DNA from: Nymphaea colorata
Lineage: Eukaryota; Streptophyta; Magnoliopsida; Nymphaeales; Nymphaeaceae
Assembly: GCF_008831285.2 (NCBI RefSeq)
Contig: NC_045145.1
Location: 24,304,802-24,368,801, forward strand
DNA: 64,000 nucleotides
Reading direction: 5' to 3'
Position numbers and translations under genes: made by a program. The notes under the pieces were generated by a model. The model was not told the DNA's origin. It did not search any database and was given only the letters and a program-made list of their open reading frames with translations. Positions 3,712 to 58,830 of this stretch are shown here, piece after piece (position 1 is the first letter of the stretch; every line of letters begins with the position of its first letter).

Positions 3712-3765
3712 CTAGTGACCTGAAATTTCACGAAAAAGAATATTAGTGGTCTTCCTACAACCGTA

Positions 3766-3799
<34 letters not shown>

Positions 3800-4653
3800 A
3801 GTGATTCAATCTACCAAAATCCAAGTTATTGGGAAAATAACTATATATTAAATGAAAGTTGTTCGAAATTTATTCTGTAGATTGAATTTTATAACACGAT
3901 TGGGAAAAAAAGGCTACTAATTCCACCCAGAAACTTGGGTGAAATAGAAGGATCTTTCGAAAATTTTATGAAGAGAATTTGATGAAAAATTTGTGAAAAA
4001 AAAATGAATAATAATTCCATCCAAAAATTGGGTGCAATAGACACATCTTTTCAAAAATGTATAGAGAGATGAAATTAAGAAAGGAGGAGATGGAGATTAG
4101 ACTCATCTATACCTTGTGGTAGTTGAAGGATGATGAGATGAGCCACGCATGTTCCGACAACAATCATCAAAGAGAGTTGCATAAGGACTATAGAAATCTT
4201 CATAATTTGGTTTCGACAACCCTCATTAGTTCCAAGCCCCAAAAGAGGGGCAAATATTGAGAGCACATGCATAGAGAGAAAGAACGAAAGTGTGAGCAAG
4301 CAAAGCACCAAAATCAAAGGGAAGACAAGCCAATCTGTCGGTAGCTTCTCCACGAAGCAAATCTGCAGAAGACTAAAAATACCAGAGAACTGTATGGGCA
4401 TACAGATCTTTACCACAAACTTAAGTGGGAAACCCTCCTCCCTCTGGTTCATCGTCGAAGAGGAACTGTGCATCAAATGTCCGGGAGTGACCTCTATGTT
4501 TACTTCTGAGCTTGAATGTAAAGGCCCAGGCACAATTTCCTGCTGCTGCATTGTTGTGGAGGGAGGCATAGGTGTTGCACCATCAAAATGTGACATAACT
4601 ATCACAATGGCTTTATGCCATAAGCCTTTTAGAAGAGAAACAATTATAGACAT
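3712..4653 (-). CDS. G-family small membrane protein, copy 1 (two exons)
   Basis: Model: exon 1 from 4653 down to 4113, intron 4112-3720, exon 2 from 3719 to 3712. This gives 182 residues. An in-frame ATG at 4671 also exists, but 4653 is chosen because the AGTAAAATG context matches the starts of the other two copies. Order in the protein: conserved SLLKGLWHK near the N-terminus, a Pro/Gln-rich linker (TPMPPSTTMQQQEIV), a Ser-rich stretch, QICFVEKLPTDW, a hydrophobic segment (about residues 105-130, FPLILVLCLLTLSFF) and a second one near the C-terminus (VLMQLSLMIVVGTCVAHLIIL). I infer two membrane helices. The donor is CAAG then GTATAG; the acceptor is ATTTCAG. The 393 bp intron holds only a TG/TA microsatellite. 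The family is not one I recognise. It is likely expressed or recently so, since frame and splice sites are intact. Confidence 0.6.
3765..3799. repeat. (TG)n(TA)n microsatellite in intron of G copy 1
   Basis: A TG run is followed by a TA run of about 22 bp. The introns of G copies 2 and 3 hold much longer TA arrays at comparable positions before exon 2. Confidence 0.9.
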
Positions 4654-4711
4654 TTTACTGTCGTCTGGCACTGCAGAAACCTACAAAGCAAGGTTGGATG
4701 CTTTTAATTAA

Positions 4712-6170: not shown

Positions 6171-6173
6171 GAG

Positions 6174-8879: not shown

Positions 8880-10260
8880 ACCCAAACACGACAGAACCTG
8901 ACGGGTACACATGACTTGCAATTATAATTTATGAGGAAAAACAGAAATAATCTTTCCAACGACTTTCATCAAAAGCGACCATGTGGCCTTACTAAAGGGA
9001 GAACAAGTTGAAAGTTTCAACATTTAAGTGAAAGATCGAACGTTTAAGAGAATTGCAGAGGTGTATTACTAGTCCTGTGTAGAATGCAGAACAACTTGAA
9101 AGTTTAATATTTTGTAGAAGTGGAGAGGTTTATTATTAGTTCTGCGCACAATACTTTTTACTAGCTTGCTCCTAATTGTTCTACCGTCGGCGCAGAATAT
9201 CACAGTTCCCTCATCCTGAGTTGTCGCACTTTGCGTGAGTCGATCACTGGCCATGCCATTCCTCCTAATTTTTTGCACTCCCGTGGACTCATTTTAAATA
9301 ATTTTAATAGGAAGTTAATTTCATAAGAGCATTAGCTATAAGAAAATCAATTAACCCATTGGAATATTTAGAAGTCCGACCAGATCAGCTTCTGTTTGAC
9401 TATTTCCTGTTCGTAAAATATTTTTTGGTTTCAAGAAAATTATTTGGATCTATTTTTTAGAAAAAACTAGTGACAATATTATCGTACTGCGGAATATTTA
9501 GAAGCACAATATTGGATGACTGATATTGTGATATCAACCCTCATGAAAAAAAAAAACTCACCCCCACAATTTTCTTGAATATAATGAGTACTGTCCTCGT
9601 CAAAACTAGCCTACAATACAAATGACTTATATAAACTTTCGATGCAACCCCGTTGGGAGATGTGGTTCTCTACCTTTATTAAAATATAGTATAGCAGGTG
9701 GATTTCAACGGCACTTTGGTAGCTTGCCAGAACATTAATTAATTATTAGACAAGAGACTACACGGCTGCTGAGTGTGAGTAGCGTACAAAACCAAAGTTA
9801 AATCTGACTATACGGTTGCTGGTTTGTTCAATTATTTTCATTCTTTATTAATAAAATGGTGGGGAGCTTTTCATCATTTCACACTCACTTTGACGATCAA
9901 CACTCCTTTCTTGTTGACTAGCCAGAAAATATATCAGTGACTGTACGGGCATGCATCTGCCCTAAAGTTTGGTTGTAAATTTGCCTCGTGGTGCAGCAGT
10001 GGCCGCACAAGCTGCTAAAGGGAAGGGCTAAAGATGAAGCCTGAAAACTTAAGGTCAACTGTATCTACTGAGCTAAGTGGGAAGGGGGTGATGTTGATGG
10101 TGTCATTGAAGGTGTGAGCTAGAAATAGTTAAGGACCGTATTGCACTCAGCCTGCATGTCTCCGCAGTGAGAGCAGCTTCGCCTTCCACCTCCAGAAATC
10201 TGAGGCCAGATGGTCACCGAGCACGTATGGAGCTCAATTTTCTAGGTAAAACCTTAAGCT
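8880..10260 (+). repeat. Block C, copy 1
   Basis: Collinear with 50880-51930 and, for its middle part, with 31860-32350. Shared landmarks are CAGAACCTGACGGG, TTCCAACGACTTTCATC, the TTCTGCGCACAATAC stretch, and the final GAGAGCAGCTTC and AAAACCTTAAGCTTAA. The 51 kb copy lacks about 320 bp present here (about 9440-9765). No intact frame is shared by all copies, so I regard the block as non-coding or fully decayed. Confidence 0.8.
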
Positions 10261-10659
10261 TAATTTCCGTATGCATATTATGGTTGCTCTATTCCATTAA
10301 TTGGGTTTGTTCCCTAATTCAATTGCTCATCAACTCTCACATGAATTGCCAACCGGCCGTGCCACCACGGTCTTATTAAACTCTCACATAAATGGTTCCC
10401 TACCTTCTTATTTATAATGTACCGCCACCACCGTCTCTGTTTAGGTGGCTGGCTACATACTAGAATTTAAATTTCCTGTTAGGAAACGTTTGTTTTTTTG
10501 ACATATTTGAGGGGATCATGGGGCAATTTTTTTTAAAAAAAATTGTATATTACAATTTATGTTTTTGAAAAAACTAATTGAATTTCTCAGGAAAATCTTA
10601 TATAAAATTTGATTTTTAGGGAAATATGAAAATTGGCCACCTCAGAGACAAGTGGGACC

Positions 10660-11945
10660 CGTATTGAATACAACATCTAGGGGCATGATTGTATCTGAAT
10701 AGAATCCCATTAATTTGACAAAATAGGTTTCAAACCACTTGCATGGCTAATAACATGATCTTTTGTCCATACAAATTTCATGAAATGGCTAATTTGTCTA
10801 TCTTCATAGGTGTAATGTTCACTAGGCAACCTGAATGCCATCATCCAATGACTAGTTACTTGGTTTATCACGTGCTTGCCTAAGCATATTCTCTCCAAAC
10901 TAGACAATAAATGACCTTCCCAACCAACCAATCAAGTATCTGCTGCATTATTTAGCAATTCCTCATATTGGAACATGTTGAGCGTCCCCACAAAAGAGGC
11001 AAGACTAGATAGGACAATGGGAGACACATCTTCGGACATCCCAACAAATTGAATATATTTTCAATATGTGTTTCTACACATGAAAAGAAATAAAAATAGA
11101 TTTTTTAGGGTTAAACCAAAGCCCTGGTTTCTCCATAAATTCCTATAGATACAAATCTTAAATATGGACAATTGACTCTAACTCTCCCCTCCAACAAATT
11201 ATCATGTTATCAGCCTAATAAAGACCCAGGTCTAATAGTCTAATCCCACAAAGTTCGGCATCCATATAGATGTTTTCTCACTTTCCTGCCTCAATCTCAT
11301 AGAGAAAATTTCAATGAAGAGAATAAAAAGCACTGGGGACATTGTGTCCCCCTTCTCCTACTTTATCTCTAAAAAACTTTCTATCTCTACCATCTATATA
11401 TCACCCCTGCAAATATAGCCTATGATATACATACTGTTTTCTCTGTTAAATCATTGTAAAATTTCGAATGATTTAGAACAAGTTTCAAAATATCCATTTC
11501 ACTTTATTATAAGCTTTAGTGATGTCTAATTTTAGTAAATCAATTGACTAGAACTATTCTCGAAGCAGTAACTAATTTATGAAACAGGAAAATCTATTCT
11601 TGAATGACCTTGTCAAGGATGAAAACTCCATGGTCCAAGCTTATAGCTATTGCCATGACCTATGTCATCCTACGACAATCACTTTATATACAATTATGCA
11701 AAGAAATAAGGCAGAAATCTTTTATGTTTATTCCACATTGCATCTCTAGAATAAGAATAAGATATGTGTAGTTCACCATTTTCACCAACTTGCTACTCTT
11801 ACAAAGTGGTTTAAAACAACTTCACTGATATTTTTCCCACTATATGCCAACACTTTTTGTAGAATTAAGCTAGAAATTCAACTAGACCAAGTGCTTTGTT
11901 ACTCTTCATACTGAAACTTGCCATTTTTACTCCCTCTATATTTTG
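10660..11945 (-). pseudogene. L1-type LINE ORF2 remnant (reverse transcriptase and following domain)
   Basis: Translated on the minus strand in shifting frames, the segment shows the hallmarks of plant L1 ORF2 in order. These are a KSNKALG-like start of the polymerase region (about 11920), a DFCPISL-like motif (about 11720), a KAYNKVKW motif, then GDPMSPVLFILFIE (about 11330-11290), the decayed catalytic-site region, and WEGHLLSSLERICLGKHVIN (about 10920). Many stops and frameshifts make it dead. The same 3' piece occurs at 33165-33560. The poly-A end is not clear. Confidence 0.75.
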
Positions 11946-22190: not shown

Positions 22191-22341
22191 CCTGAGGGCC
22201 TTGATTATGTCTAGTATGCAATCGAGACCAACCACACAATTAAAACCCCAGCATTCAGAAGGCGAATCCGTTGGAACCAAGCTATAAAATCCCCAATTTA
22301 TTCCTTCAAGGGGATCTTCACGCTTTTGTATTCACTCAAAG

Positions 22342-22572
22342 TGTTGAAAAGTCGTGCCTTATCTTGATAAGGCAAATCAATTTTATCTAGAGCTAACCCT
22401 TGATCTTAGGTAAGATTAGCTAATCCTTGATCTTAGGCAAGGTTTGAGGTTTCTATGCTTATCGCTAATGTCAAAGAGTCTATAAATTGTATAGTGGACA
22501 ATCAATGAACTCACTCTCTTTTCTTCTCTTGTTTTCCTCTCTCTGATTATCTCCTTTCACCATACTTTAATA
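22342..22572 (+). repeat. Copia 5' LTR
   Basis: It contains a short hairpin (GCCTTATC, TT loop, GATAAGGC; 22356-22373). A 17 bp direct repeat (CCTTGATCTTAGG then YAAG at 22398 and 22425) follows, and then a TATAAAT box at 22481 that could drive element transcription. In the 3' LTR the matching box reads CAATAAAT. Confidence 0.93.
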
Positions 22573-22586
22573 TGGTATCAGAGCAG
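22573..22586 (+). other. Primer binding site, initiator Met-tRNA
   Basis: TGGTATCAGAGCAG follows the 5' LTR directly. It is complementary to the 3' end of plant initiator Met-tRNA, the usual primer for copia elements. Confidence 0.9.
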
Positions 22587-23495
22587 TGTTCATCCAAGAA
22601 GCGGCGTCAAGAAGTCTGGCCTTGTGCAACTGGAGCTCGTTCATCTTTCTTCCCAGGCATTGCTTTCTATCTTTGATGTAAAACTCACGGATATCCACCG
22701 TCGTCCTCCTCCTCGTTGTCATCGTTCCCCTTTTCCCTTATCCTTCACTATCTCCTTGTCCTTCCCGTTAGCAGACGAGCCTGTCCCTGTGGATCCAAAG
22801 CCTCATTCTTCTTCGCCTCCTGCCCTTCGCCACCAGAATGCGAACCCAATTGCGGCGGTCGAGTTTTGAAATGGGAACTTCGTCTTGAGATTTAGCGAAC
22901 TTTGGCGGATTCAGCGAGGTGAAGCCATCCTCTAGAAGGGCTTCCAGTTTCTTCAACGGCAGAGCCTTCTCCCGATCTTCTGCCACGCGCCAAGGGGAGT
23001 GCATGCGAGCGCGGGAAAGAAGAGGTGATCGACGACCACGTCTGTCCACAGCAGCAAAATTGGAGACGTTGTTAAGACCAGCCACTGCAGCTGTCAAGCA
23101 CGAACCAAAACAAAGACTGTTTATGGAAAAATACTGCCCGCCAGCGCATATCCACCAATTGCATCCCCAATTCAACACAAAGATAGGGTTTTTCCACATT
23201 ATCCGGTGACGCAATCCAACATTCCACTTTAATGTTATCTGAATGATGAATTGCATAACTAACAACATCTGTAATATTGCTGTGTGAATTAAGGAGTAAG
23301 TCTGAAGGTGTCGGGCGAATAGCTTCACTGTGCTGAGACTTCAAATTTGCGCCAGAGATTTCAAGAAGAACTGAGAGGTGACAGCAGAATTGCAAGAACA
23401 ACCTGCTGCGGCTGAAGTAGGAGACTCCAACCGTCTGCCCTTGAGGAAGATGGCAGAAAGAAGAGAGACCATTCTAAAAGAACCCAATGAAGACG
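22587..23495. other. Unusually long copia leader with unexplained sequence
   Basis: About 900 bp separate the primer site from the first gag similarity. The stretch is GC-richer than the element. Its minus strand keeps long open frames: 23328-22768 (186 residues) and 23401-23072 (109 residues, with ATG at 23401). The latter contains coherent-looking segments such as LLNSHSNITDVVSYAIHH and ASPDNVEKPYLCVELGMQL. I recognise no family. It may be a host gene piece picked up in antisense, or simply family-specific leader. Confidence 0.4.
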
Positions 23496-23499
23496 ATAT

Positions 23500-25912: not shown

Positions 25913-26139
25913 CTTCGGAGATCTACGCGATCTAAACATATACCGACTCATCTTAAGGACTACAAATGCTTCTCAATCTTGCCGAGTTTCAGCCATTTGT
26001 TGAAGAGTGAGGGGACAAACCACACAAAAGGTACTCGTTACCCGATTGCACAATGTCTTGATGTCGCTAACTTCAATTTCAACTACAAGTGTTTCATGTC
26101 TTCCCTCTTTGAGCAATGTGAACCTTCATCTTTTGCTTA

Positions 26140-26914: not shown

Positions 26915-26974
26915 CACATAAAGCTTGACAACAAAAAGGAAGGCATCCTCAAAGATCCAAATCATTATAGAAAG

Positions 26975-27577: not shown

Positions 27578-27633
27578 GAAGCATTCCACAACTTAAGGAG
27601 CAAGTTGACACTTGGCAATCCAGGAGCGTCAAC

Positions 27634-27644
27634 TTGAAGGGGAG
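27634..27644 (+). other. Polypurine tract
   Basis: TTGAAGGGGAG lies immediately before the 3' LTR, in the normal place for plus-strand priming. Confidence 0.85.
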
Positions 27645-35130: not shown

Positions 35131-36607
35131 ATGTTTAGAATTGCTTTTCTTCTAAAAGGATTATGGTTTCAAGCCACCATGACAATTATATCGCGACTTA
35201 ATAGCGAAACACCTATGCCTTTACCCTCCACAACACCGCAGCGGCAAGAAATTATGCCTGGCATTTTACATCAAGGCACAGCAATCAACATAGAGATCAC
35301 TCGCGAGACACTTAGGTTTGCAGCAAAAATTTATATGCCCATACAGTTCTCTGGTATTCTTTCCCTTATACAGATTTGCTTCGTGGAGAAGCTACCAGCA
35401 GATTGGCTCGTCTTCCCTTTGATTTTGGTGCTTTGCATGCTGACACTTTCATTTTTGCTTTCGACGTATGTTCTCCCAATATCTCTTCCTATTCTGGGAC
35501 TTGGAACCAATGAGGACAGTCGAAACCATATTATGAAGATTTATGTAGTCCTTATGCAGCTCTCTTTGATGATTGTCGTTGGAACGTGCGTGACTCATCT
35601 AATTATCCTTCAACTGTCACAAGGTAAATGAGTCTAATCTTCGTCCCTTCAACTGTCACAAGGTAAATGAGTCTAATCTTCGTCCCTCCTCACTTAATTT
35701 CATCTTTCCATACATTTTTGAAAAGATGCGTCTATTTCACCCAAATTTTTGCATGGAATTAATATCCTTTTTTTTGCCCAATTTTGTCATAAATTTCATT
35801 TTACATACTAAATTATTTTTATGTTTTATATTCTAGAACGTTTCCCTATTAATATTCTTCCAATGTTTCTGAAATGTACTTCATTGGACTTGACCATGTC
35901 CAGACTTTTCTTAACATGACATTTAAAAAAAAAATCAACTTTTATATGAAATTTTAAAACATTAATTTTGCCCTTCTAGTGAAAATAAAATTTAAAAAAA
36001 ACAAATTTTCTTTTGTACACCGACACAGCAGTTATGTGGACAGCGCATAGCTAGAATGTGAAGACAAAAAACATATAAAGCAAATCTAGGTTTTTAAAGG
36101 CAATACTAGTTTTTGTACTTTTTAACACAACAAGGTAATACTTATTGTAAAAAAAAAATTGAACGACAAGTTTAGAATATCTATTGTTAATTAGGTTATT
36201 ATAAATTGAAACCTGAGTCTGTTCTTTGCTTTAGTGAGGTATGGGTGAAAGCTAAAGAAAATTTACGGGACCACCCAATGAAGTTGGCGGCATTGAAGTG
36301 GTTGTTGAATGAAAAAGATTTTAAGGGTGCGAATTGGAACAAAATTGCATGTTAGGATCTTATAAGCAACGAAAAAAAAAAATCACTAGTTCGGCTCTGT
36401 CACTACTATATATAATGAAGTTCACTATTAGCTTTTTGTTATCATTCTAGTAGATCTAGTAGCTATCTGTTTTTCTAGCTGATGCTGCAAAGTCGCAGAT
36501 CTGCCTATAGATTAATTGAGGAATTTTTATGAAATGGAAAGCAAAGTCGTAGATCTGCCTGTAGATTAATTGGAAAGTGAATTTGCAGATACCAGACAAA
36601 CTTTCAG

Positions 36608-36646
<39 letters not shown>

Positions 36647-37509
36647 GAAAATCTAATTGTGACTTTGGTTTTTAGGAGTCACCCGACCATCTAATCAGGG
36701 TCATAGTATTTAACATGATGGAGGGGTAAGAACAAAACAAGGAAAAAATGGTGATGGTCTTTTTGTCATCTAATATTAGTTCAGATTTTTTTTTCTTGTT
36801 TTTCTTTCAATAATCCATCCACATCAGATGAACATACATAATTAAATAACTTTGTAACTCTGGATAACTAAAGTCATTATTCACTCACTGTGTGTATATA
36901 TAAATGTGTTGATGCTAGACAGATAAAGAAAATCCCTAGCTTTTCATAATACATTACTAGATATTATGCATTCCGTGATATTATGCATTCTGTGGTGTGT
37001 TTCAGCATGAGGTGGCCATGATTGTTTAGTTAGAATCATTTGATCCAACATGATGAATGGTTAAGAAAAAAATAAGGAGAAAAAATTTATCGGTATTTCT
37101 CCTTATTTTTTTCTTACCAATAGTCATGTTGGATCAAATGATTCTAACTAAACAATCATGGCCACCTCATGCTGAAACACACCATGGAACGCATAATATA
37201 CAGTAATGTATTGTGAAAAGCTAGGGATTTTCTTTATCTGTCTGGCATCAACACATTTATATATACACAGTGAGTGAATAATGACTTTAGTTATCCAGAG
37301 TCACATAGTTATTTAATTATGCATGTTCATCTGATGTAGATGGATTATTGAAAGAAAAACAAAAAAAAAGTGTGAACTAATATTAGATGACGAAAAGACC
37401 ATCACCATTTTTTCCTTGTTTTGTTCTTACCCATCCATCATGTTAAATACTATGACCCTGATTAGATGGTTGGGTGACTCCGAAAAACCAAAGTCACAAT
37501 TAGATTTCC

Positions 37510-37546
<37 letters not shown>

Positions 37547-37954
37547 CTGAAAGTTTGTCTTGTATATGCAAATACGCTTTCCTATTAATCTATAGGCAGA
37601 TCTACGACTTTGCTTTCCATTTCATAAAAATTTCTCAATTAATCTACAGGCAGATATGCGACTTTGCACCATCAGCGAGAAAAACAAATAGCTACTAGAT
37701 CTACTAGGGATATTATGCTTTCCATGCTGTGTTTCAGCATGAGGTGGCCATGATTGTTTAGTTAGAATCATTTGATCCAACATGATGAATGGTTAAAAAA
37801 AAAGGAGAAAAAATTTATCGGTATTATCGTCATCTAATGTTAGTTTACATAATTTTCTTTTTGTTTTTTCATCATCTAATATTAGTTCATAATTTTGTCT
37901 CTTTGTTTTTATTTCAAACATCCATATGTTTATGGATGATCTTAGTTGTGTATG

Positions 37955-38021: not shown

Positions 38022-39277
38022 CCAATTTCATATGACATTTTTTTCCACCAAGAACGTTTTGTGAAACTCCTTGGCCTCCAAACTTGAAGTGTCCTGCTTT
38101 TACGTGATTCACAGGCTTCAACAAACAATCAATATTTCACTTTCATGATCAAAGGTGTAGCTTGTAGTAGCCGTTCTTAGTCAATCATTCATAATATAAA
38201 AAAAAAAACATTTTCTTTCTTGGTAAATCTACCAAGGGCTATAGTCATAGTGATCCTCCTATTTAACTACTTCAACCATTTTTGAATATGAAGGTTTGAG
38301 CATCTATAGATGATTCCCCATCCACTACCCTTTTCCAAATTTTTGGTCTCGAATATACAATACGGATCCTTCCTTTGCAGTCTATCAAACTGACCTTTGC
38401 AACCCAACCCCTGTTTCTCAAGTTCATAATTGGTCTCTTGCTTTTTTTCATTTTTTTTATCTATTTTATCTACTAAACAAAAAAAATTAATATAATAAAA
38501 ATTTGACTCTTGACAGTGATATATGTTGTATATGTATATCTTATTGGTGAAACAATATATAGAATACAAAATGGAAAGAAGACTAGGCGAAAATTAAAAA
38601 ATAAGGAAGATCAGCATATGAGATATAAATAATGACTCATAAATCAAGTTCGGGTTCGAATTCCATACATTATCTATATCCTTATATACATATAATTCTA
38701 GATGGGATTGCAGATCAAATTACGATTATAATCTTATACTTATAATAAGAAGAAGATAACTTTCTTGACCAATCCCTTTGTCCCTTGCTCTTCGAGAAAC
38801 AGAAAGGACATTTTCGAGTTTGAATTTGTCCATTTGGAATCGGGTTTCTTTTCTTTCCTTCCCTTTTTCATTTATTTCCTTTCATCGTTTCAAACTTTAT
38901 TTTTCTATAGTAGCCTAGTTTCCAATTAGTTTAGTATAGGAATGATTTGTAAGGTGTCCCATATGTAGAAATCCATATTATTTATGTCATTCAAAAGATC
39001 CTTCTTTGTTTACTTTCTTCTTACTACGGAAAAGTTCTTCCCCAACAAGTGGATCCCGCTCTAATAGCTCTGAATAAATCAAATACATGCATTAAGATAT
39101 GAAGGCTTCTTATTCCACAACAACAAAAATACTTTTTCATTCTTTCTTATACTAGGGAATTCTGCTTGGAACTATATGTATAATTTGTTTGTGTGTTGCA
39201 CTTTGATTTTTCCCATGCATATATAGGGATGGAGGGAGACCACTAATTTTCTTGTTCCTGAAATTTCAGGTCACTAG
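35131..39277 (+). CDS. G-family small membrane protein, copy 2 (two exons, large intron)
   Basis: Model: exon 1 35131-35623, intron of 3646 bp, exon 2 39270-39277; 166 residues. The start context CAGTAAAATG matches the other copies. The N-terminus is MFRIAFLLKGLWF, followed by the Pro/Gln linker (PLPSTTPQRQEI). Relative to copies 1 and 3 about 15 residues of the Ser-rich segment are missing, in frame. Then QICFVEKLPADW and two hydrophobic segments, VFPLILVLCMLTLSFLL and VVLMQLSLMIVVGTCV. The donor is CAAG then GTAAAT, the acceptor ATTTCAG. The intron holds a 1.26 kb foldback, long TA arrays and plastid DNA; whether it is spliced efficiently is unknown. If not, an in-frame TGA 7 bases beyond the donor gives almost the same protein. 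Confidence 0.6.
36449..37706. repeat. 1.26 kb near-perfect foldback in the intron of G copy 2
   Basis: The left arm 36449-37080 and right arm 37098-37706 are inverted copies around a 17 bp loop. Matching landmarks from outside in are AGTAGATCTAGTAGCT, the TA array (36609-36643 against 37513-37544), ATCTAATTGTGACTTTG, GGTGATGGTC, ATTCACTCACTG and AGGTGGCCATGATTG. Differences are few. A transcript would form a very long hairpin. Related single-arm sequence lies in the same intron at 37720-37860 and in the intron of G copy 3 at 57880-58300, so the foldback arose by inverted duplication of intron sequence. Confidence 0.9.
37707..37860 (+). repeat. Extra partial copy of the foldback arm
   Basis: Repeats the inner left-arm sequence (landmarks TTTCAGCATGAGGTGGCCAT, TTGATCCAACATGATGAATG) directly after the foldback, in left-arm orientation. 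Confidence 0.85.
37957..38019. repeat. (TA)n array in G copy 2 intron
   Basis: About 31 TA units. Confidence 0.95.
38150..39130 (-). other. psbD: Plastid-derived DNA (NUPT): psbD start and its upstream spacer
   Basis: On the minus strand, GGAGGATCACT is followed by an ATG at about 38243 and MTIALGRFTKKEN, the N-terminus of photosystem II D2, with its ribosome-binding sequence. The coding part decays within about 60-90 bp. Upstream on that strand (up to about 39130) lies sequence with the feel of the plastid trnT-psbD spacer, including CAAATTTTTGGTCTCGAA- and GGGTTCGAATTCC-type words. I infer one insertion of about 0.9-1 kb. It sits inside the intron of G copy 2 and is absent from copies 1 and 3, so it arrived after the duplication. 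It is not expected to be functional in the nucleus. Confidence 0.75.
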
Positions 39278-39345
39278 TGGGCAATTGAGAATTTTGTGCT
39301 TTGCCAGGCAATGCGATAAGGAAATAATGCATAACTACCCTTTTC

Positions 39346-39794
39346 GGATTGATAATCAAAAGGGGCTTGTGCAGAAGGTTTTCATAAATAATTATATTAG
39401 GACAGATAAATCTTATGGATTCAGGGCCCTGATTACCATGGAGGATCATTCATTATTGCTGCTACAGCAAGGGGAGATTGTATGGTCTAGGGAGGAAGGA
39501 CTTGCCTCAATCATGGATACTACGACATCCGAACTACCAGTGGAAAAAGAAGGTGTTTCAGTTGCCAAAGTTGAGGAGAATCTGTTTGAGTGGCTCAAGG
39601 TATTTCCAAGAGTTCCCTATTTTCCAGTTTAGCTTTGCCTTGGCTTCAAACGTCTGTGGTTTTGTTCTTGGGGAGTTTTATTTTCCATTGCTGAAAAAAA
39701 AAGTCTCTCCATTTGTTTTGCTGTTTCTTTCTGTTTGAGTCACTTTAACCCTGATTAAGTGGTCACTTGTTGATGTACTTCAATAAGACATTGT
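39346..39794 (+). pseudogene. EMC1: EMC1 fragment (ER membrane protein complex subunit 1): one exon with intron flanks
   Basis: EMC1 is the large luminal beta-propeller subunit of the ER insertase. Here an acceptor (GGGGCTTGTGCAG) is followed by a 225 bp exon, 39375-39599, 75 codons without a stop. Segments KVFINNYIRTDKSYGFRAL, MEDHSLLLLQQGEIVWSRE and TTSELPVEKEGVSVAKVEEN are characteristic of plant EMC1. The exon ends TGGCTCAAG then GTATTT, a donor, and about 190 bp of presumed intron follows. No other EMC1 exon is nearby. The fragment fills the left breakpoint of the 1.4 kb inversion in this block and shows no transposon ends. I recognise the family from memory of its conserved motifs. Confidence 0.8.
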
Positions 39795-41375
39795 ACATTG
39801 ATATGTGGATGCATCCATGATTTTTCAAATACGACGCACACAGAGATCTGTCAGCAATAAAAAAAGTCACCTAATTAACTTTAACAACTAAGACTTTTCT
39901 GCTTAGTTAAAAGCATCGGCCATAACTTTATTTTTGCCAGGTTAGTAACTTTATTTAAGAACATGAGAATTATCCAGTTTCAAATTTAATATACTGAGGA
40001 CTTTCCTGCATAACTTTCACAAGATGTTTCCCCTTAACATTGACATTAAAAAAACTATTGTTCACATAGATAAGGTATCTTATTCACCTTACTCATCAGC
40101 TCAGCTAATTAATAAGGTTGTGCTTCGTTAACAGAAGATTTTTTGATGAATGGCACAAAGTTAAATTAGCCGTAAGTATTTTTCAATCACATTGCCAAAT
40201 GATCACCATGTGCTCTTCGGATCAAAATTTCCTTTTAATTTAGTAACTTAATTAGTACCACGTCACTTAGCTATAGCAGGAACCCTTAAACTAAAGTTGT
40301 TGACCTGGCAAATACAAGTATGTATAGGCTGAAGTTTGACGTCCTATTTATACTTAATTTCATCCGGGCCTTATTAACCGCTGCGACTTCATGTGAAACG
40401 ATTTTGCTTAAGGACATGGTGAGAATGTTATTCTTTTAAAATTCATGAATGTGAATAACTATGTAAGCAGTCCTGTTAAAGTCCCATAAGGAAGATCACT
40501 TCACCAACGTCCATAAACTTGCCTTGGGAGACACAGAAAGAATCGAGAATTATATTAATGCCATCTTAGGGTTCAGTATGTCAAACGACAGAAAATATTC
40601 CAGGGTCTGTGATCTTTTTTTTGCAAGTTGGCCTTCGTTTTTTACAACTTCGTATCTAAAAATTAAGTGTTTTACAAGAATAATCACATAAATGCAAAAT
40701 TGTCTGTTAAATTTGGGACAATGACATGCACCTTGTTCCTGCAAAAGGACCAGAATTCCAAGGCTTGGGGCGGAGTACTTATAGCAAGCATTACTTGCCA
40801 TCACATATATAAGGAGATCATATTTAAACAAAAATGCTCCCTTTTTTTCATCTTGCACATACATTCTGGAGGAAGCTCCAGTTCATAATCAAATGACTAA
40901 TTAAAATTGCAGTCGGCAGAGTTGGATATATAGTCAGACTGTCACTAAATAAAAAAAAAAGTCTGAATGATCAATTTCCATGCCTTTCAATTCAAGAACT
41001 CGATACATTCTTCCAGAACCTACAAATCATACATTAGCAAGAAGCAAACATGATACATAGATGTTGGGGTGGTGTTGTTGAGGACGATAACCACAGGCGT
41101 ACGGTAGAATCAGCTAGCTCATATTAATTATAATTATTGTCAAAACTGCGTACATCTATTTGAAATATTATCCATTCGTGATTCATCTGTTCTGCAATAG
41201 CAGGAAAAGCTTCCACAAATGCACAGGAAACGATTGAGATAAACACACCAACAAAACAAAAAATATGGACGACAGAAAAGAATAATTGTAAAGTTGGTTA
41301 AGTACCCCTCTACACGTTCCATGACCAAATTAGATCAGTCATTGCAAATTTATATCCATGGTAGCATATAGACGC

Positions 41376-47079: not shown

Positions 47080-49200
47080 CGGATAAGAATGGATCCTTTG
47101 GGGGCATTTCTTTAAAATGCGTGGTCGACCGCCATGGATGCTGGTGTGTCTACTTTCTTTTAGTAACAGTTGGTGATCAAGGAACCGATTTTTACCCCCT
47201 AATCGATACCATTAAACTGGATTTTTGTGCAAAATATTTAGGGAGAACTATTGATGTAGTAGCACTAAGCAAGATCGACCAAAAAAACCTACAAATCTGC
47301 CAAAACACACAAGAGATATTGGGTGTCCAAATTCCTTTAAAATCCACTGACGCCGCCGGTAGTTTCAAGGGTTCAGTTTTGTTTTTCCAGCAAACAATAG
47401 ATTATTTCCGCCAGTTTTTGGTTTGATTGAATGATGAGAACCTAAAAAACCTAGTGAAAGCACATAATCCACCAAGAATCATAAGAATATCTCGTAGAAA
47501 TCATTCCATTTTCATAAATACAGCAGAATAGTAAGAAAACAAAAAAAAAATGATTTTTTGACATCAAATACGTGTCTGGATGTGATTTTTCTCTTTTAAA
47601 ATGCTTGGGTTCCCATCTGTCCACGTTTAGCCATTAAATCAGTCCACATCGTGCTCTCACCTGCTCGGCGACTAACGCCATGGCCAGGTACGCTGTCCCT
47701 TCTCTCTGGTTGTCTGTCCCTCTCTCTATTGTCGGCCAAGGTATCCCCTCTCCCTAACCAATCGCACCCTCTCTTGAACTTCGCCAAGTTTCTACAGTGT
47801 AGGAGCTTTCCAAATCTGTTGCAATCTCTACCATCGATTGCAAATGCTTAGAGTGGGTCGAACAAGCCACAGATTTCACGAGAAGAAACAACACAAAAGA
47901 AGGCAAGAGACGGAGGCGGGGGTTGGGCAGGTGAATTTTGTGACCTTAACTCCCGAATGGCCCGAAGTAGCATTTCCTCTCGTTGCCGGGCGGAAAGAAC
48001 AGCTTTTGCAGAGAGACGTCAAGTGAAGGATAAAGGGGAAGCTGGTAGGGAGCGGGAACGCTATTGCTAGAGTGAAGCCAAGTCTAGAATACTTTTTTGG
48101 TCCTGCCATTGTCAGTTATTGTCTGCCTTGCTTGATTTTCAAACCATGTCTGCTTAATTTGCTCCCTACTTCAATTTCATCAACATGATTGGAAAGGCAT
48201 CGTTTCATAAATTGCCAACAGGATCGAGCTCCAGCCCCATGGCTTGGAGCTTAGACTTGAGAAACTCTCAAGCGGAGGAGGGTCGAATCGTTCATCAATG
48301 GAGGAAGAAGAATCATGCAGTTGACTAGTTCTGGTTCATCTCAGAGACCTGAAGGTTAAGTGTGAGACTCTGTAAGTTTCAATTGAAGTGTTCAATCTGT
48401 ATATAGTTCACGATGTTTTTAATATGCATGGAACACTTTTTTGAAACTCAACCTTTCTAGCATCTCTAAATTGGAATAATCGGTACGATAAATCCATCGA
48501 CCTTGGGACTTATTTGACATGGATTTGCTCTTAGAACAGAAGTTGGGCACCAAAAAGTAAAACAGAAGTTGGGCACCAAAAAGTAAAGATCTATCCCAAT
48601 CAGGCCCCAACTTTTTCAGTTTCATGGACAGAAAAGCCCGACATAGCTGATTTGTTGATTAATCAATATATGTTCAGCTTAGATTTTAGTTTACAAATGT
48701 GTGATAACGTTGGGACTGATTTTGCAGAGGGAGAAGGAAAAATGAAGCAGCAGAAAGTTTGGAGATCTGGCTTACGGATGGAAGGGAGGCGTCTTAGTTG
48801 CCATCTGCAGGCAAAACCGGTACTTGACCACCATCAAACGATCTTGTGGCACAGGTAATTAATTAGGAGAGTTCCCTACTTACTTTTCTTCTTACCATTG
48901 AAATCCAATTCTAGAACCGCGCAAATAGTTTGTTCTATAAGCTTAAAGCTTGGCCTGCGGCAGATGAAAACTATTGAAAAATAAAGATAAATATTGTCTA
49001 TTACAATTAACAAAGAAAAGTATACATATGGAAAAGGAAAAAGTTTAAAGAGAAAGTGGAAACTTATTCGAAAATTAAGCATGCATATACAGTAATTGAT
49101 ATATTTTCTGGCTAGTCAACAAGAAAGAAGTGTTGAATGTATAATCAAATTCTCGACTAGAAGGTGTATTATTGTAAACCAACTTAGGCTAATTTTTTTC
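47080..49200 (+). repeat. Block B, first copy in unit 3
   Basis: Collinear with 29131-31860. It keeps a 101-residue plus frame at 47121-47426 (VDRHGCWCVYFLLVT, TDFYPLIDTIKLDF, KIDQKNLQICQNTQEILGV) that is truncated by a stop in the unit 2 copy. It also keeps the candidate first exon at 47680-47740. Relative to unit 2 it lacks 260 bp at 47648 and about 360 bp near 48305. No product can be named. Confidence 0.75.
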
Positions 49201-49439
49201 CTTTTCATTCTTTTACATGATCAAGCAAACATAATATTTGAAAAGTTCCTTGTTCTTTTTTTCTTTATATAAATAAGCCTTTATAGCAATTGCTTTTCTT
49301 TTTGTTTTCTTTTCATTTTCATCTTTTAGCATCTTCTGTTCGACCTTCATATGTGTCACATATAAGAGTCATGTACATGGGCTTACGCATAGTACACAAA
49401 TGTACAAGCCTATGCATATACTATAACTAGCTTTGCAAC

Positions 49440-50760
49440 ATCAGCATCCCTATCTGACTCAGGTAAGGCTGTTAACAAACTTTTGCTTAAAAATTAACTA
49501 TTCGACGTTGAAAAGGTTCTTAGTAAAGCGAAAAGTAGTAAAAATTTTCATACTGCCAAGTGTTAATATTGAGAACAGTGTGAAATATTTCAATGGGTCA
49601 AACATTTCCGTAGTGATCAAGGCCGCATATTTTTAAGATAGCAGGCGCGCCAGTTGAAACCATTTTGTTTTTCCAAAGACGAACTGTTATTTGTAAGATT
49701 TCAGATGTCAAGGCTGGAGAAAGTTGAATCCGCCAATTTTGCACCAAACTTTTGTTTGTTAATAAAAAAAACGACCCCTTCGTTTTACTCTTGATAATAA
49801 ATTTGGCATCAGACACCATACGATATAACACAGAGAAAATAAGCAAGCTATCATTGAGATTCACCCATTTGCCCAAGCGGGAGGTAAACTATCTTTTCAC
49901 TAGGGATGGGCAACGAATCCCGATCACGTATCATGTTTTCTGGTTCCCAACTTACATCGGGTCGAGTATGGAACCCGGAAGATGTTAGGAATGAGTTCTC
50001 TTTCTCTCACAATATCAAGCATAGATGAAGAAGAAAAAGAAAGAAAACAGACGGCTGCACAAGTTTTTTTACTAATTCAGAATCAAGAATACAAGATACC
50101 CCACTCAAATCTCGAACGGGGATTAGGGAAATACTACAAAATGGTAACATTGCAATAATAACATTAAGAAAAATTAGGGAAGCCTATTAAGTAGGCATCA
50201 AATGTCACACTCTAATAAAATACACTAAGACGCGGTTTGGCAACTGTAATGGAATGTTACTGTTTCATGCATGCATCTGACCTAAAAGTTAGATTAAATG
50301 CATGGAACACTTCTTAAAATATCCTAGAAACCTGCCTCAATTTCTAGGACACATACATGGAACAATAACAACTTATTATCATTGACAGACAGTGCTTAAG
50401 AGTGCATTGGGTTTTGGAGTGTTTGAATGCCAAAACCCAATTTTGACAAAATCTGGTTTTGTAGAAAGAAGTGAAAAAATCTAACCCCCTCCAGCTATTC
50501 ATGAAAATCCAAGTTTTGTGTGCGTCATGCCAAAAAAAAGAAAGAGAAAAACCAAGTTTGCAAAACTCATTATAAAAGCTTTCACAAAACGATAAGAATG
50601 TCATCTAAAAAAAACCCCTTATAGTTTTCATCTAACCCCACAAATTCCAAATCAGATTTAGAGTCATGCAATTGTTGACCCAAACAGGTGCCGGGTACCC
50701 AGTTCCTTCTGGATCATAGACTGGGCCTCAGGGCTAATCCATCAAGCGACCGGTCTTAGC
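49440..50760 (+). repeat. Block D, first copy
   Basis: Matches 53830-54760 directly. Contains the sequence also found inverted at 43870-44170 and, at about 50395-50650, a piece beginning TTGGGTTTTGGAGTG and reading CCAAAACCCAATTTTG just inside, repeated at about 54418-54660. The minus frame 49876-49598 is open for 92 residues, but the matching frames in the other two copies diverge, so I do not call it a gene. Confidence 0.75.
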
Positions 50761-50829: not shown

Positions 50830-51930
50830 AGTGTATTTTTTCCTTTCCTTACTTTTTTTTCTTCTTTTTTTGTAGTTATATCAATGACAGAACCTGACGG
50901 GAAAAACAGAAATAACCTTTCCAACGACTTTCATCAAAAGCGTCCATGTGGCCTTACTAAATGCAGAACAAGCCGAAACTTTCAACATTTAAGTGAAAGT
51001 TCGAACGTTTAAGAGAATTGCAGAGACATAATAATAGTCCTGTGTAGAATGCAGAACAACGTGGAACTTTAATATTTTATAGAAGTGCAGAGGTCTATTA
51101 TTAGTTCTGCTCACAATACTTTTTACTAGCTTGCTCTTAATTGTTCTATCCGCGTAGAATATCACAGAATTCCCTCACCCTGAGTTGTCGCTCGTGAGTC
51201 GATCACTGGCCATGCCATTCCTTCTAATTTTTCGCACTCCCATGGACTCATTTTAAATAATTTAAATAGGAAGTTAATTTCATAAGAGCATTAGTTATAA
51301 AAAAATCAATTAACCCATTGGAAGATTGAGAAGTCCGACCAGATCAGCTTCTATTTGACTATCTCCTGTTCGTAAAATATTTTTTGGTTTCAAGGAAATT
51401 ATTTGGATCTAACACGGCTGCTGGGTGTGAGTAGTGTACAAAACCAAAGTTAAATCCGATTATACGGTTGCTGGTTTGTTTAATTATTTCTATTCTTTAT
51501 TAATAAAATGGTAGGGAGCTTTTCATCATTTGGCACTCACATTGACGATAAAACTCCTCGACATTATCTAGTTGTCCAATATTTCAAAGCCTTCTCTTCA
51601 GACTTCAGTACTTGGGCTATCAGTTGGTAGTAAATTTGCCTCGTAGAGCCGCAGTGGCAGCAGAAGCTGCTAAAGGGAAGGGCTAAAGATGACGCTTGCA
51701 AGCTTAAGACCAACTGTATCTACTGAGCTGAGTGGGAAGCGGGGTGATGTTGATGCCTTCATTGAAGAAGATGGTGTGGGCTAGAAATAGTTGAGGACCG
51801 AATTGCACAGCCTGCATGTCTCTGCAGGGAGAGCAGCTTCTCCTTCTACCTCCAGAAATCTGAGGCCAGATGGTGACCAAGCATGTATGCAGCTCAATTT
51901 TCTAGGTAAAACCTTAAGCTTAATTTCCAT
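50830..51930 (+). repeat. Block C, copy in unit 3
   Basis: Matches 8880-10260 except for a deletion of about 320 bp at 51411, where ATTTGGATCTA joins ACACGGCTGCTG. Confidence 0.8.
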
Positions 51931-51949
51931 ATGCACATCTCCAGAAAGA

Positions 51950-53300
51950 TGGCTTGAGATGAAACGAAGGCAAGAGACGGAAGTGGGGGTGTGGGCAGGT
52001 GAATTTTATGCCCTTAACTCCCGAATGGCTCGAAGTAGCATTTCCTCTCGTTGCCGGACGGAAAGAACAGCTTTTGCAGAGAGAGGTCAAGTGAAGGCAA
52101 AAGGGCAAGCTGGTAGGGGGCAGGGAGGCTATTGGGAGAGTGAAGCTAAGTCTAGAATACTTTTTTGGCCACGTATGTCTCCGCTATTGTCAGTTACAGT
52201 CTGCCTTGCTTAATTTCCAAACCAATTTGCTCCCTACTTCAATTTCATCAACATGATTGGAAAGGCATCGTTTCATAAATTGCCAACAGGATCAAGCTCC
52301 AGCCCCATGGCTTGGAGAATAGACTTGAGAAACTCTTAAGCGGAGGAGTGTCGAATCGTTCATCAATGGAGAAGTCCGTACCTTATCAAAAGAGGAAGAA
52401 GAATCATACAGTTGACTAGTTCTGGTTCATCTCAGGGATCTGAAGGTTAAGTGTGAGACTCTGGTAAGTTTCAATTGAAGTGTCCAATCTGTATATAGTT
52501 CACGATGGTTTTAATATGCATGGAACACTTCTTTGAAACTCAAACTTTCTTGCATCTCTAAATTGCAAAAATCGGTAAGATAAATCCATCGAACTTGGGA
52601 CTCATTTGTCATGGATTTGCTCTTAGGACAGAAGTTGGGCACGGAAAAAGTAAGATCTAACCCAATCAGGCCCCAAGTTTTTCAGTTTCATGGACGGAAA
52701 AGCCCGATATAGCTGATTTGTTGATCAATCAATATATGTTCAGCTGAGATCTTAGTTTACAAATGTGTGATAATGTTGGTCTGATTTTGCAGACGGAGAA
52801 GAAAAAATGAAGCAGCAGAAAGTTTGGAGATCCGTTTTACTGATGGAAGGGTGGCGTCTTAGTTGCCATCAGCAGGCTAAAGCAACCCGTACGTGACCAC
52901 CATCAAACGATCTTGTGGCACAGGTAATTAATTAGGAGAGTTCAATACTTGCTTCTCTTCATAGCATTGAAATCCAATTCTAGATCCGCGCAAATACTTT
53001 GCTCTAAGCTACAGCTTCACCATTCCAATGGCCTGCGGCAGATGGAAACTATTGAAATATAATGATAAATACTGTCGATTACAATTAACAAAGAAAAGTA
53101 TACATATGGAAAAGGAAAAAAAGTAAAGAGAAAGTGGGAATTTATTTGAAAATTATACATGCATGTAGAGTCATTGATATATTTTCTAGCTAGTCAACAC
53201 GAAAGAAGTGTTGAATGTATAATCAAATTCTCGACTATTAGGTGTATTATTGTAAACCAACTTGGCTAATTTTTTCCTGATCAAGCAAACATAATATTTG
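51950..53300 (+). repeat. Block B, second and partial copy in unit 3
   Basis: Begins inside block B (matching 47885) and is followed by a second block D, so B-D is locally duplicated. The plus frame 51791-52213 spans the C-B junction and is a chance fusion. Confidence 0.75.
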
Positions 53301-53829
53301 AAAAGTTCCTTTTCTTTTTGTGTTTATATAAATAAGCCTTTATAGTAATTGCTTTTCTTTTTGTTTCCCTTTCATTTTCAACTTTTAGCACCTTCTGTTT
53401 TTTCCTTCATATGTGTCACATATAAGAAATCAAGAGCCAGGGGTTCGGTTATTTCACGGTTAGTTTTGAAAGTTTCTTCTCCTTCATTACCTAGAAATCT
53501 TGCGATGATCCTCAGCTCGCAAACCTGGTTATATGTACAGGGGCTCTGGTGAATGCAAGTACCCTTAAAAGTGGGTGAAAGAGCCAATGCAAGTGGGCGA
53601 AAAGGCCACTTGTCTTTTTCTTAAAGGTTGCGCACCATGCAAACCGTGCACTTAACTGCTCTTCTTTGGTGGGCTTCACTCACCTTAGCAGTCGGATCAT
53701 CCTCCTATACCTGAAGATCCATCTTCTTTAAGAAGAGTTTTGTAGCTTAAAACATGAGAGGTGATTATACGCACCAAGGTGCACCATACAGCCTCAATGC
53801 ATGACAAGTGTTCTCTTGGCCGAGTGGCT

Positions 53830-54760
53830 TTTTAACAAACTTTTGCTTAAAAATTAACTATTCAACGTTAAAAGATACTTCATACGGTGAGAAGTAGTAA
53901 AAATTTTCATACTGCCAAGTTCCAATATTGAGGACAGTGTGAATTGTTTCAATCGGTCAAACATTTGCATAGCGATCAAGGCAGAATATTTTCAAGATAG
54001 TAGGCGCACCAGTTGGAACCATTTTGTTTTTCCAAGGACCACAGTTATTCGTAAGATTTCAGACATCAAGGCTGGAGAAAGTTGAATCCGCCTATTTTGC
54101 ACCAAATTTTTGCTTGTTAATAATTAAAAAAAAAAAACCGCCTATTAAGTAGGCATCATAAGTTCTAATAAAATATCTTGGGCGGAGTTGAGACCAAGCC
54201 CTTGACCCTAACCCGAAGTGCAGGCGGTTACCTGCACGAGGTCCCCGCCCTGGGCTCGAGGTTTGGCAACAGTAACAGCCACCCGCCTTGGGCTCGAGGT
54301 TTGGCAACAGTAACAGCCATCTGCCCTAAAAGTTAGGTTTTAAATATAAACCTGCTTCAATTTCTAGGACAGTGGAACAATAACAACTTGTTACTATTGA
54401 CAGGCAGTTCTCTTAAGCATTGGGTTTTGGAGGTTTTGAATGCCAAAACCCAATTTTGACAAAATATGGTTTCGTAGGAAGAAGTGAAAAATCTAACCCT
54501 CTCAACCTATTCATGAAAATCCAAGTTTTGTGTGCGTCATGCCAAAAAAAAAAAAAAAAAAAAAGTTTGCAAAACTCATATGAAAACTTTCACAAAACGA
54601 TAAGAGTGCCATCTAAAAACACCCCCTTATAAGTTTTCACTTAGTCCCACAAATTTCAGTCAAACTTAGTCCCACAAATTTCAGTCATGCAATTGTTGAC
54701 CCAAACAGGGGGTACCTGTTCCTTTGTATCATATACAGTGGGCCTTTTCTCAAACTAACA
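53830..54760 (+). repeat. Block D, second copy
   Basis: Direct copy of 49440-50760 with internal losses. A short GC-rich tandem repeat with the core GGGCTCGAGGTTTGGCAACA (at 54254 and 54291) is private to this copy. Confidence 0.75.
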
Positions 54761-55608: not shown

Positions 55609-56879
55609 TATATATATAAATATATATTGGTATAATGAAATGACATAGGGATACTAATCCGATTAATGATCAGAGCATCAATGCATGAAGTAGTGATGGG
55701 AGGCATGTGAAAAATTGTACGATTGCACGGCAATTGCCCATGTAAACTCACATGTGGCTTCACCATTGAATAAGACAATACGTCATTTTTTTTTTCTCCC
55801 TTTTGTTCGAAATATAGTGATGTAAACCTGATCACCTTCTATATTTTAAAACGATGGAGATCGGTATCACGGTATGGCCAGCTTTTTACTTTTGAAAGGC
55901 AAATGCTCAAAGTAACAGGATTGCCAGAGTGCAGATTTACTATTTAAGAAAAATCACTATTAGGTTGGTTTTTTTATAAACTTACTATAAAGTATGGCAA
56001 GACCGTGCCTTGGGGACAAAAAAGTTTCTGACCCCAAAAATGCATACCTAAAAGGGTAAAAAGTGAATCCCCAAATACAGTGGTTAATGACAAATACCCC
56101 TCGTTCACATAAAAAAAAGGATAATTTTTTGGTAAGATAAAAATGAAAATAAAAAATAAAATAACTATAAAGCACCTTTTTTTTAATTATAAAAACATCT
56201 CTTTCCACATTAACGACACGCACCACCTTGAGTGCCGAACCAACCAAAGAAAAATTGGAGATCACTTGTTTAAACTGGTGGTACACTTTTATATATATAT
56301 ATTTTAAATCTCCATTTAAAAGTATAAAACTTTTGGCCACACCAAACCAGCAGCTACAGTGTAGCTCGGCCTTCCTTTTTAATATCATATTTAAAGTTGG
56401 AAAACGAAAGTAGGTGTAAACTTTTGATTTGAGGCTCTTACCAAAAAAAATCATCAACGTGGCACCATTTAAAATTATGAAAAAAAATTTGTTCCTCAAA
56501 GAAAAACTTTTCGTTTATATCCGCGCCGCGCCGCGCCGTCGTCTGCCTGGCAGTAGAGAGATCAGAGGAGGGAGGAAGGAAGGAGGCTGGTCGAGAAATA
56601 GAGGGACCAAGACGGAGGAAGAGGAATTTGTGAAGGACGTGAAGCGCGTCATACTAAAGGTAATGGCGGCCGTCTTTCTCTCTCCCCGTACTTTCATTTC
56701 TCCCTCCCTCCCACTTTGTTTGTGTTTGTGTGCGCAAGAACGATTTTGAATTGCCATACTCCGCCTCAGTTGTTGATACTTTCTAAACCGTAACTGCAGG
56801 TTTTATTCTATTGAGCACACGCCCAAGTGGTTGGAACCTTCCAACCTTACTTTGTAGGTTTCTGCGCCGCGACTGTAAA
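55609..56879 (+). promoter_or_regulatory. Upstream region and leader of G copy 3
   Basis: From 55898 it is homologous to the upstream region of copy 2. It includes the uninterrupted CTTACTATAAAGTATGG site, the empty site for the SEN2 carrier. A GCCGCGCCGCGCC stretch at 56523 and a CT-rich segment with TTTGTTTGTG and CGATTTTGAATTGCC (56690-56760) precede the start. GCTTTGTAG then GTTTCTGC, conserved with copy 1 just upstream of the ATG, might be a 5' leader splice acceptor. Confidence 0.45.
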
Positions 56880-58649
56880 ATGTTTGAAATTGCTTCTCTT
56901 TTAAAAGGCTTATGGCATCAAGCCTCCGTGATAATTATATCACGGCTTAATAGCACAACATCTATGCCTCTTCCCACAACACCACAGCGGCAGGAAATTG
57001 TGCCTGAATCCACAAGGATAATTATTTCACAGCTTGAAGGTGCAACACCTATGCCTCCCTCCGCAACACCGCAACAGCAGGAAATTGTGTCTGGGTCTTT
57101 ACATCCAAACTCAGAAGTAAACATAGAGATCACTCCTGAATTGACGCACAGTTCCTCTTCGACGATGAACCAGAGTGAGGAGGGTCTCCCACTTAAGTTT
57201 GTTGTAAAAACGTGTATGTCCATACAGTCCGGTATTTTTACTTTTCTGCAGATTTGCTTTGTGGAGAAGCTGCCGGCAGATTGGCTCGTCTTACCTTTGA
57301 TTTTGGTGCTTTGCTTGCTCACACTTTCGTTCTTTCTCTCTGCGAATGCGCTCTCAATATTTACTCCTTTTATGGGACTTGAAACTAATGAGGGCCGTCG
57401 AAACCAAATTATGAAGATTTCTGTAGTCCTTATGCAACTCTCTTTGATGATTGCCGTCGGAACATGTGTGGCTCATCTCATCATCCTTCAACAGCCAGGT
57501 ATATATGAATCTAATCTCCGTCTCCTCCTTTCTTAATTTCATCTCCCTATACATTTTTGAAAAGATGTGTCTATTTCACCCATTTTTTTTGCATGAAATT
57601 AGTATCCCTTTTTCCCCAATCTTGTCATAAAATTCAACCACAACTTTTATTTAACTTATAATTCTTTCCTTAGAACTTGGGTTATTTGTCAGAAGTTAAA
57701 ACCTGCTGGAGGACCACCATATATATCGGTGGCAAAGATATCGGGGAGGCAAAACTTACTACTCAGAGTGGCAAGATAATGCTACCTGTATATTAAATGG
57801 AAAGCAAAGTTGCATATACTGCATGATCTACTTGTAGATTAATTAAAAATACAAGACAATATATATATATATATATATATAGGAAAATCTAATTGAGACT
57901 TTGGCTTCCCAGAATCACTCAATCATCGAATCAGGGTCGAATCAGTGTCGTAGGATTTAACATAATGGAAGGGCAAGAAAAAAACAAGAAAAAAAAAAGG
58001 TGATGACATTTTTGTGATATAATATTAGTTCATACTTTTGTTTCTTGTTTTTCTTTCAACCATCTATCTACGTCAGATCGACAAGCCTAATACTAAGTAA
58101 CTCTAGATAACTAAATAAAGAAAATCCTCTAGCATTTCATAGTACAGTACTGGATATTATGCATTGGGTGGTGTGCTTCATCATAAGGTATTAAGGTGGC
58201 CATGATTGTTTAGTTAGTCATTTGATCCAACATGATGAATGGTTATGTGAGAAAAATAAGGAGAAAAATTTTATGGGCATTTTCATGATCTAGTGTTAGT
58301 TCATATATTTTTCTTGTTCTTTTCACAACCCTCCATCTATTTTTGACAAACAAACCTCGTTGGATGGCTGGCATACTCTAGATTGCCATGGTCATCATTT
58401 ATTCACTCATATATATATATATATATATATCACTTTTGAGAGTCACTCAATTAGCTAATCAAAACCATCTAATCCAACATAATGGATGGTTAGATGAAAA
58501 ATATAATGAGTATTTTCATCATCTATCACAATTCTATCTCATTGTTCTAATTTCAAACATCCATATGCTTATGGATGGTCTCGGTTAGGGGGACTTTGAA
58601 AAGTAAAGTTATCATTCAAAGGAAAAGTCAAAGTGCAACACACAAACAG

Positions 58650-58738
<89 letters not shown>

Positions 58739-58830
58739 TGTTTGTGTGTTGCACTTTGATTTTTCCGTTGCATATATAAGAATGTAGGAAGACCACTAAT
58801 GTTTTTTTTCTTGAAATTTCAGGTCATTAG
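56880..58830 (+). CDS. G-family small membrane protein, copy 3 (two exons)
   Basis: Model: exon 1 56880-57498, intron of 1324 bp, exon 2 58823-58830; 208 residues. The frame is open upstream to 56811, but 56880 fits the conserved TGTAAAATG start. N-terminus MFEIASLLKGLWHQ. Residues of about 18-75 are a tandem duplication: an 87 bp unit (29 residues, recognisable by PTTPQRQEIV and SATPQQQEIV) starts at 56931 and again at 57018. Copies 1 and 2 have it once. The Ser-rich segment, KFVVKTCMSIQ, QICFVEKLPADW and two hydrophobic segments (LPLILVLCLLTLSFFL; VLMQLSLMIAVGTCVAHLIIL) follow. The donor is CCAG then GTATAT, the acceptor ATTTCAG. Intact frame, likely the best-preserved copy. Function unknown; membrane location is inferred. 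Confidence 0.62.
57856..58430. repeat. Single-arm relative of the foldback, with TA arrays, in G copy 3 intron
   Basis: 57880-58300 matches one arm of 36449-37706 (ATCTAATTGAGACTTTG, GGTGATGACA, AAGGTGGCCATGATTG, CCAACATGATGAATGG). This is the non-inverted form. TA arrays lie at 57859-57880 and 58410-58430. Confidence 0.8.
58621..58766. repeat. (TA)n array bounded by 30 bp inverted repeats
   Basis: 58621-58650 (ending GCAACACACAAACAGT) and 58737-58766 (ACTGTTTGTGTGTTGC and on) are inverted copies with one mismatch in 30. Between them is about 85 bp of pure TA. The whole can fold into one hairpin. It lies just before exon 2 of G copy 3. In the copy 2 intron only the right-hand repeat (about 39185-39212) is present. 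Confidence 0.85.

Follow-up and report, generated by a model that had tools for sequence, protein, structure and literature searches.

Copies of a predicted small membrane-protein family in Nymphaea colorata, with partial support for constraint on its core

A 64,000-nucleotide stretch of the genome of the water lily Nymphaea colorata (NC_045145.1, C8:24304802-24368801; hereafter the window) carries three dispersed copies of a gene-like unit, referred to here as the G family, together with a fourth, partial remnant. In each of the three copies a first exon would encode practically the whole of a small membrane protein, and a long intron would separate it from a second exon that supplies the stop codon and the 3' untranslated region (UTR). 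The features of the four units are as follows.

4113..4653, minus strand: copy 1 (G1), exon 1, from ATG to the predicted donor, 180 codons plus one base.
3645..3719, minus strand: copy 1, exon 2 as predicted from splicing at a TTTCAG acceptor, mostly 3' UTR; the downstream edge is approximate.
35131..35623, plus strand: copy 2 (G2), exon 1, from ATG to the predicted donor, 164 codons plus one base.
35607..35687, plus strand: period-39 tandem duplication in copy 2 (42 bases match), leaving two versions of the splice-donor region.
39270..39345, plus strand: copy 2, exon 2; homology to copy 3 stops where a piece of EMC1 starts.
56880..57498, plus strand: copy 3 (G3), exon 1, from ATG to the predicted donor, 206 codons plus one base.
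58823..58898, plus strand: copy 3, exon 2; the downstream edge is approximate.
215..1123, plus strand: fourth remnant (G0), consisting of exon 2 and downstream sequence only, with its acceptor at 279-288.

The three copies had been proposed in a sequence-only reading of the window, and self-BLAST bears them out at these positions. Copy 1 aligns with copy 3 as DNA (3975-4603 with 57017-57635, 87% identity, E 0) and with copy 2 (3975-4664 with 35120-35797, 72%, E 6e-130), and because the copies can be aligned as DNA duplicates, chance resemblance is excluded. From the start of exon 1 to the first stop there are 192, 166 and 218 codons in copies 1, 2 and 3, respectively, so that the open frames of 166-208 residues first described were about right, and the three proteins are 67-79% identical over aligned residues. 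G0 was not part of that reading; for it, no exon 1 was found in the fetched interval of 24.287-24.307 Mb, except a minus-strand copy at 24.291 Mb.

A GT donor closes exon 1 in each of copies 1-3, and a distant acceptor (TTTCAG/GTCAnTAG, the slash marking the predicted junction) is kept in all three, preceded by a T-rich tract and by a CTAAT sequence that we take to resemble a plant branch point. The acceptor and the bases following it are common to the G copies, the 24.291-Mb copy and four closely similar loci of a related group (D, below). Joined in this way, the frame of the window copies would end at once in Gly-His-stop, leaving the remainder of exon 2 as 3' UTR; of the D and E copies printed, six of seven share a terminal CTT-TGA.

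Relatives of these copies are numerous in the assembly to which the window belongs (407.8 Mb, 783 contigs). A search with copy 1 returned at least 85 matches and one with a D-type query at least 65; among the copy 1 matches listed, 60 fall within C8:22.8-24.5 Mb and 25 outside this interval, the family being present on several chromosomes. The relatives form tandem arrays, segmental copies and inverted pairs, and were sorted into four groups, with array periods read from self-BLAST.

Group G: the copies of the window; an inverted pair (C8:22.80 Mb); a mostly half-length array (C8:24.20-24.22 Mb); one copy with a frameshift at 24.24 Mb; and arrays repeating every 1.5 kb on C3 (7.50 Mb) and C8 (3.60 Mb).
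Group H: one open copy only, on the minus strand at C8:24.291 Mb, 13 kb beyond the left edge of the window; it shares the acceptor of the window copies.
Group D: mainly C8:23.49-23.99 Mb, with a few members elsewhere.
Group E: C8:23.06 and 23.85 Mb, and C5.

Nine places hold near full-length G copies, a count that includes copy 2, which the genome search split in two. Four of the nine, namely copies 1-3 and one of those at 22.80 Mb, are free of internal stops, and five have them. The half-length array (L028 and L029, C8:24.204-24.224 Mb) repeats at offsets near 0.66-0.8 kb, and many of its members end near residue 110.

Inversion recurs among the relatives. Five of 13 D loci examined are unbroken palindromes, six have interrupted inverted arms and two are without long arms; the head-to-head inverted pairs L010, L011, L014, L018, L024 and L025 form palindromes of 1.6-2.8 kb with arms 79-95% identical, and the 22.80-Mb G pair also forms an unbroken palindrome in this size range. 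These palindromes and interrupted arms, and the presence of copies on several chromosomes, speak for open frames carried inside a mobile element, for instance a foldback-type element with long inverted arms, but the palindrome ends differ among the three inspected (L018, L024 and L025), no mobile-element domain was found with Pfam in the members scanned, and the window copies are parts of longer duplicated units; such an origin is judged very improbable. A transposon with shared ends was provisionally set aside, the arm ends differing in the three palindromes inspected.

The predicted protein consists of a conserved core of about 100 residues and a freely changing linker rich in Pro, Gln, Ser and Thr. 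By hydropathy, the core holds three hydrophobic segments in each of the four proteins examined (copies 1 and 2, the 24.291-Mb copy and one D protein), that is, the two segments first noted and a third, and the first two are linked by a short E-K-L-P-x-D-W turn; copies 1 and 2 possess an extra hydrophobic N-terminal stretch. Genome matches and hydropathy together support the description of a multi-copy membrane protein, insertion into the membrane being predicted from the hydrophobic segments. None of seven members (three from the window and four others) exceeded the Pfam-A gathering cut-off, the best sub-threshold match being E 0.023 for the 24.291-Mb copy; none of the three window proteins exceeded a curated NCBIfam cut-off, and PDB sequences gave no match at E 0.001. 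Three core motif strings were not found in the open-access literature of the one library searched, and one scan of prokaryote genomes yielded 52 pattern stretches and no relatives, so that bacterial relatives, none being confirmed, were dropped. Within these collections, the results are consistent with the claim that the family is undescribed.

Two sub-threshold matches to the hydrophobic stretch of copy 3, to DctQ in Pfam (PF04290; E 0.14, 12.5 bits against a cut-off of 28.3) and to the ArgB-like model NF002210 in NCBIfam (E 0.058, 13.1 bits against 282), probably reflect composition only. Small, fast-changing membrane proteins are often missed by profile searches, and the G family may accordingly be a distant member of a named plant membrane family that has diverged past sequence detection. 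A weak alignment of the linker to designed ankyrin repeats (E 0.0012 at best over the whole sequence, with no individual stretch reaching significance) points the same way, but the match was gone with a nine-row profile, and neither the Pfam search of seven members nor the NCBIfam search of three gave a match above cut-off, leaving a named family rather improbable. No Pfam ankyrin model was found in the seven members scanned, and an ankyrin origin of the linker was rejected.

Constraint was examined through codon fits of omega, the ratio of nonsynonymous to synonymous change (dN/dS). In the 11-copy set one D row was removed, residues 1-45 of copy 3 and the C-terminal tails were cut and stop codons were treated as missing; the codon fits on this set leave out D and E rows, pairwise fits use the same trimmed set, and frameshifted copies entered only by their in-frame stretch. 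Open copies are copies 1-3, the 24.291-Mb copy and one 22.80-Mb copy, while the 24.205-Mb copy, whose frame is open over the C-terminal part only, was classed as broken. A larger core set comprised the 39 of 75 matches covering at least 80% of the core, from which nine near-identical, frameshifted or stop-rich rows, some broken copies among them, were dropped before branch fits.

The signal of constraint lies in the core of the open copies. Pairwise core omega is 0.65, 0.37 and 0.54 for pairs 1-3, 1-2 and 2-3, only pair 1-2 being clearly below 1 (p 0.003), and by branch on a four-copy tree it is 0.28 for copy 2 (p 0.011), 0.36 for copy 1 (p 0.10) and 1.46 for copy 3 (p 0.60). The five open copies fitted alone give 0.54 (p 0.002) and the six broken copies alone 1.30 (p 0.21), a contrast also seen in the joint tree, in which open-frame tips evolve at 0.46 versus 1.37 for all other branches (twice the log-likelihood difference, 2dL, 12.6; nominal p 0.0004). 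A core tree of 30 copies spanning the four groups gives 0.29 for copy 2 and 0.36 for the 24.291-Mb copy, and a scan of 58 branches of the core ranks copy 2 (omega 0.29, p 0.0036) first by p value, followed by the stem of D (omega 0.27, p 0.0075) and the 24.291-Mb copy (omega 0.34, p 0.013). Over the whole of exon 1, pairs 1-2 and 2-3 give 0.70 (95% interval 0.45-1.11) and 0.61 (0.41-1.00), neither different from 1 at the 5% level. The linker, fitted on 10 of the 11 copies, gives 1.08 (p 0.63), and positive selection on it, suggested by an omega of 3.8 for pair 1-3 (p 0.04), was not upheld on these 10 copies.

Gaps and local rates provide further evidence. All exon-1 length differences had been described as in frame, and indeed all 12 gaps in the three pairwise alignments are divisible by three, the pairs sharing events so that the 12 are not independent, as against 18 of 79 gaps in ten window duplicates taken as noncoding; at the noncoding rate, five to seven independent events would all be in frame with a chance of 6e-4 to 3e-5. 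Between copies 1 and 3, exon 1 has diverged more slowly (K 0.115) than its flanks (0.198 and 0.176) and exon 2 (0.332).

Taken together, these observations are read as a small membrane-protein family, probably confined to one lineage, that evolves by birth and death and keeps few live members, a reading more likely than not though well short of secure. A number of results weigh against it. Omega over the whole exon is 1.03 for pair 1-3 (95% interval 0.55-2.01, not different from 1 at 5%), and a single whole-exon omega on 11 copies is 0.89, likewise not different from 1; for the core, the value over all 11 copies is 0.83 (p 0.22), a single omega on the 30-copy tree is 0.845, which does not fall below 1 at the 5% level (2dL 3.3), and the value shared by five deep branches of that tree, 0.68, does not do so either (2dL 2.0). 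The p values of the 58-branch scan are nominal, and none of the 58 survives Bonferroni correction. The chance of an open frame by substitution alone is 0.38, 0.14 and 0.40 for copies 1-3, and thus the absence of stops is by itself weak evidence. Two acceptor-like matches in other loci are without the AG. Finally, comparison of copy 2 with either of the other copies shows exon 1 evolving no more slowly (K 0.214 and 0.199) than the 170 bases of intron that follow it (0.141 and 0.135).

The last pattern, the reverse of what constraint predicts, suggests a mosaic origin or gene conversion, either of which could bias omega. Copy 3 provides a related case: its 29-residue gain is an 87-base internal duplication, of which the first unit is nearer copy 2 (82% versus 75%) and the second nearer copy 1 (84.5% versus 78.6%), as if exon 1 were a mosaic left by unequal recombination. 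Since both patterns point to recombination between copies, any single tree is an approximation.

The same evidence bears on whether the whole family is dead, a pseudogene cloud of an old gene that spread as passenger DNA and in which open frames survive by luck. The 51 ordinary branches of the 30-copy core tree together have an omega of 0.97, which, with the neutral whole-exon value for pair 1-3, the stops in five of nine near full-length G places and a joint chance of about 0.02 (as a product) that substitution alone would leave all three copies without stops, is in keeping with such a cloud. The difference between open tips and other branches and the in-frame gaps of exon 1 argue otherwise, and a wholly dead family is considered unlikely.

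Constraint on the family is thus partly supported, its signal being in the membrane core. The sequence-only reading had placed the family as a whole under constraint and had named a dN/dS near 1 as contrary to it: such a value was found for the whole exon of pair 1-3 and not for the core of pair 1-2, so that the claim has support for the core of the open copies, most clearly in copy 2 and the 24.291-Mb relative, and none over exon 1 as a whole, with no constraint detected in copy 3 and an unclear result for copy 1. Of the window copies, copy 2 is the likeliest to be live; copy 1 is possibly live, and copy 3 is probably on its way out.

The surroundings of the copies were correctly described as decayed, inverted and invaded, and include a palindrome found by self-BLAST.

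36447..37707: palindrome of 1.26 kb in the copy-2 intron, its arms 90% identical to each other and related to the copy-3 intron (57782-58323).

Behind copy 2 lies an inversion of about 1.4 kb, and at its left break (39343-39814) sits a 474-base, 99.4% identical copy of an exon and flank of EMC1 (endoplasmic reticulum membrane protein complex subunit 1) from C1:29.63 Mb; overlaps of about 3, 6 and 2 bases at the junctions resemble those left by templated end-joining repair. This is a real exon copy that adjoins exon 2 of copy 2 and is not part of the family, and a frame at 39207-39632, considered as a further family exon, was rejected as being mostly the EMC1 piece. Between the copies, a second dispersed repeat family (29140-32352, 47081-49771, 50900-54745 and 8935-11047; about 82-93% identical by self-BLAST) looks noncoding, to judge from its many 1-base gaps. 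Open frames at 22340-27877, flanked by a pair of direct repeats (about 235 bases each, 93% identical), presumably belong to a Copia-type retroelement, to judge from their translations. Ten open frames of the window scanned for other genes gave no Pfam match above cut-off.

Under birth and death, tandem, segmental and inverted duplication would multiply the family, chiefly along a single chromosome arm, and many new copies would drift neutrally and then break. Selection on the core would hold only a few, namely copy 2, the 24.291-Mb relative and perhaps copy 1. The core may anchor or assemble in the membrane, with the linker as a spacer, roles guessed from the anatomy of the protein. The G family is like the lineage-specific (orphan) plant gene families that evolve by birth and death, which resemble no detectable family and are clustered, with many members decayed and few constrained, but it differs from them in its recurrent head-to-head inverted pairs and in the limitation of constraint to the membrane core. 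A more elaborate and doubtful proposal is of a lineage-private cluster, confined to one chromosome arm, that re-seeds itself by inverted and tandem duplication, its core selected and its linker free, in which any transcription running through head-to-head copies would produce hairpin RNA capable of silencing the family; if this were true, the cluster could be a fast-turning recognition locus or a dosage-controlled one.

If the family is dead, it is an ordinary pseudogene cloud. If it is live, it would add an unnamed membrane-protein family to the water lily, a member of an early-branching flowering-plant lineage, and would offer a compact natural contrast between open copies with a constrained core and broken copies that drift freely, in a family for which inverted duplication is a recurrent way to make copies.

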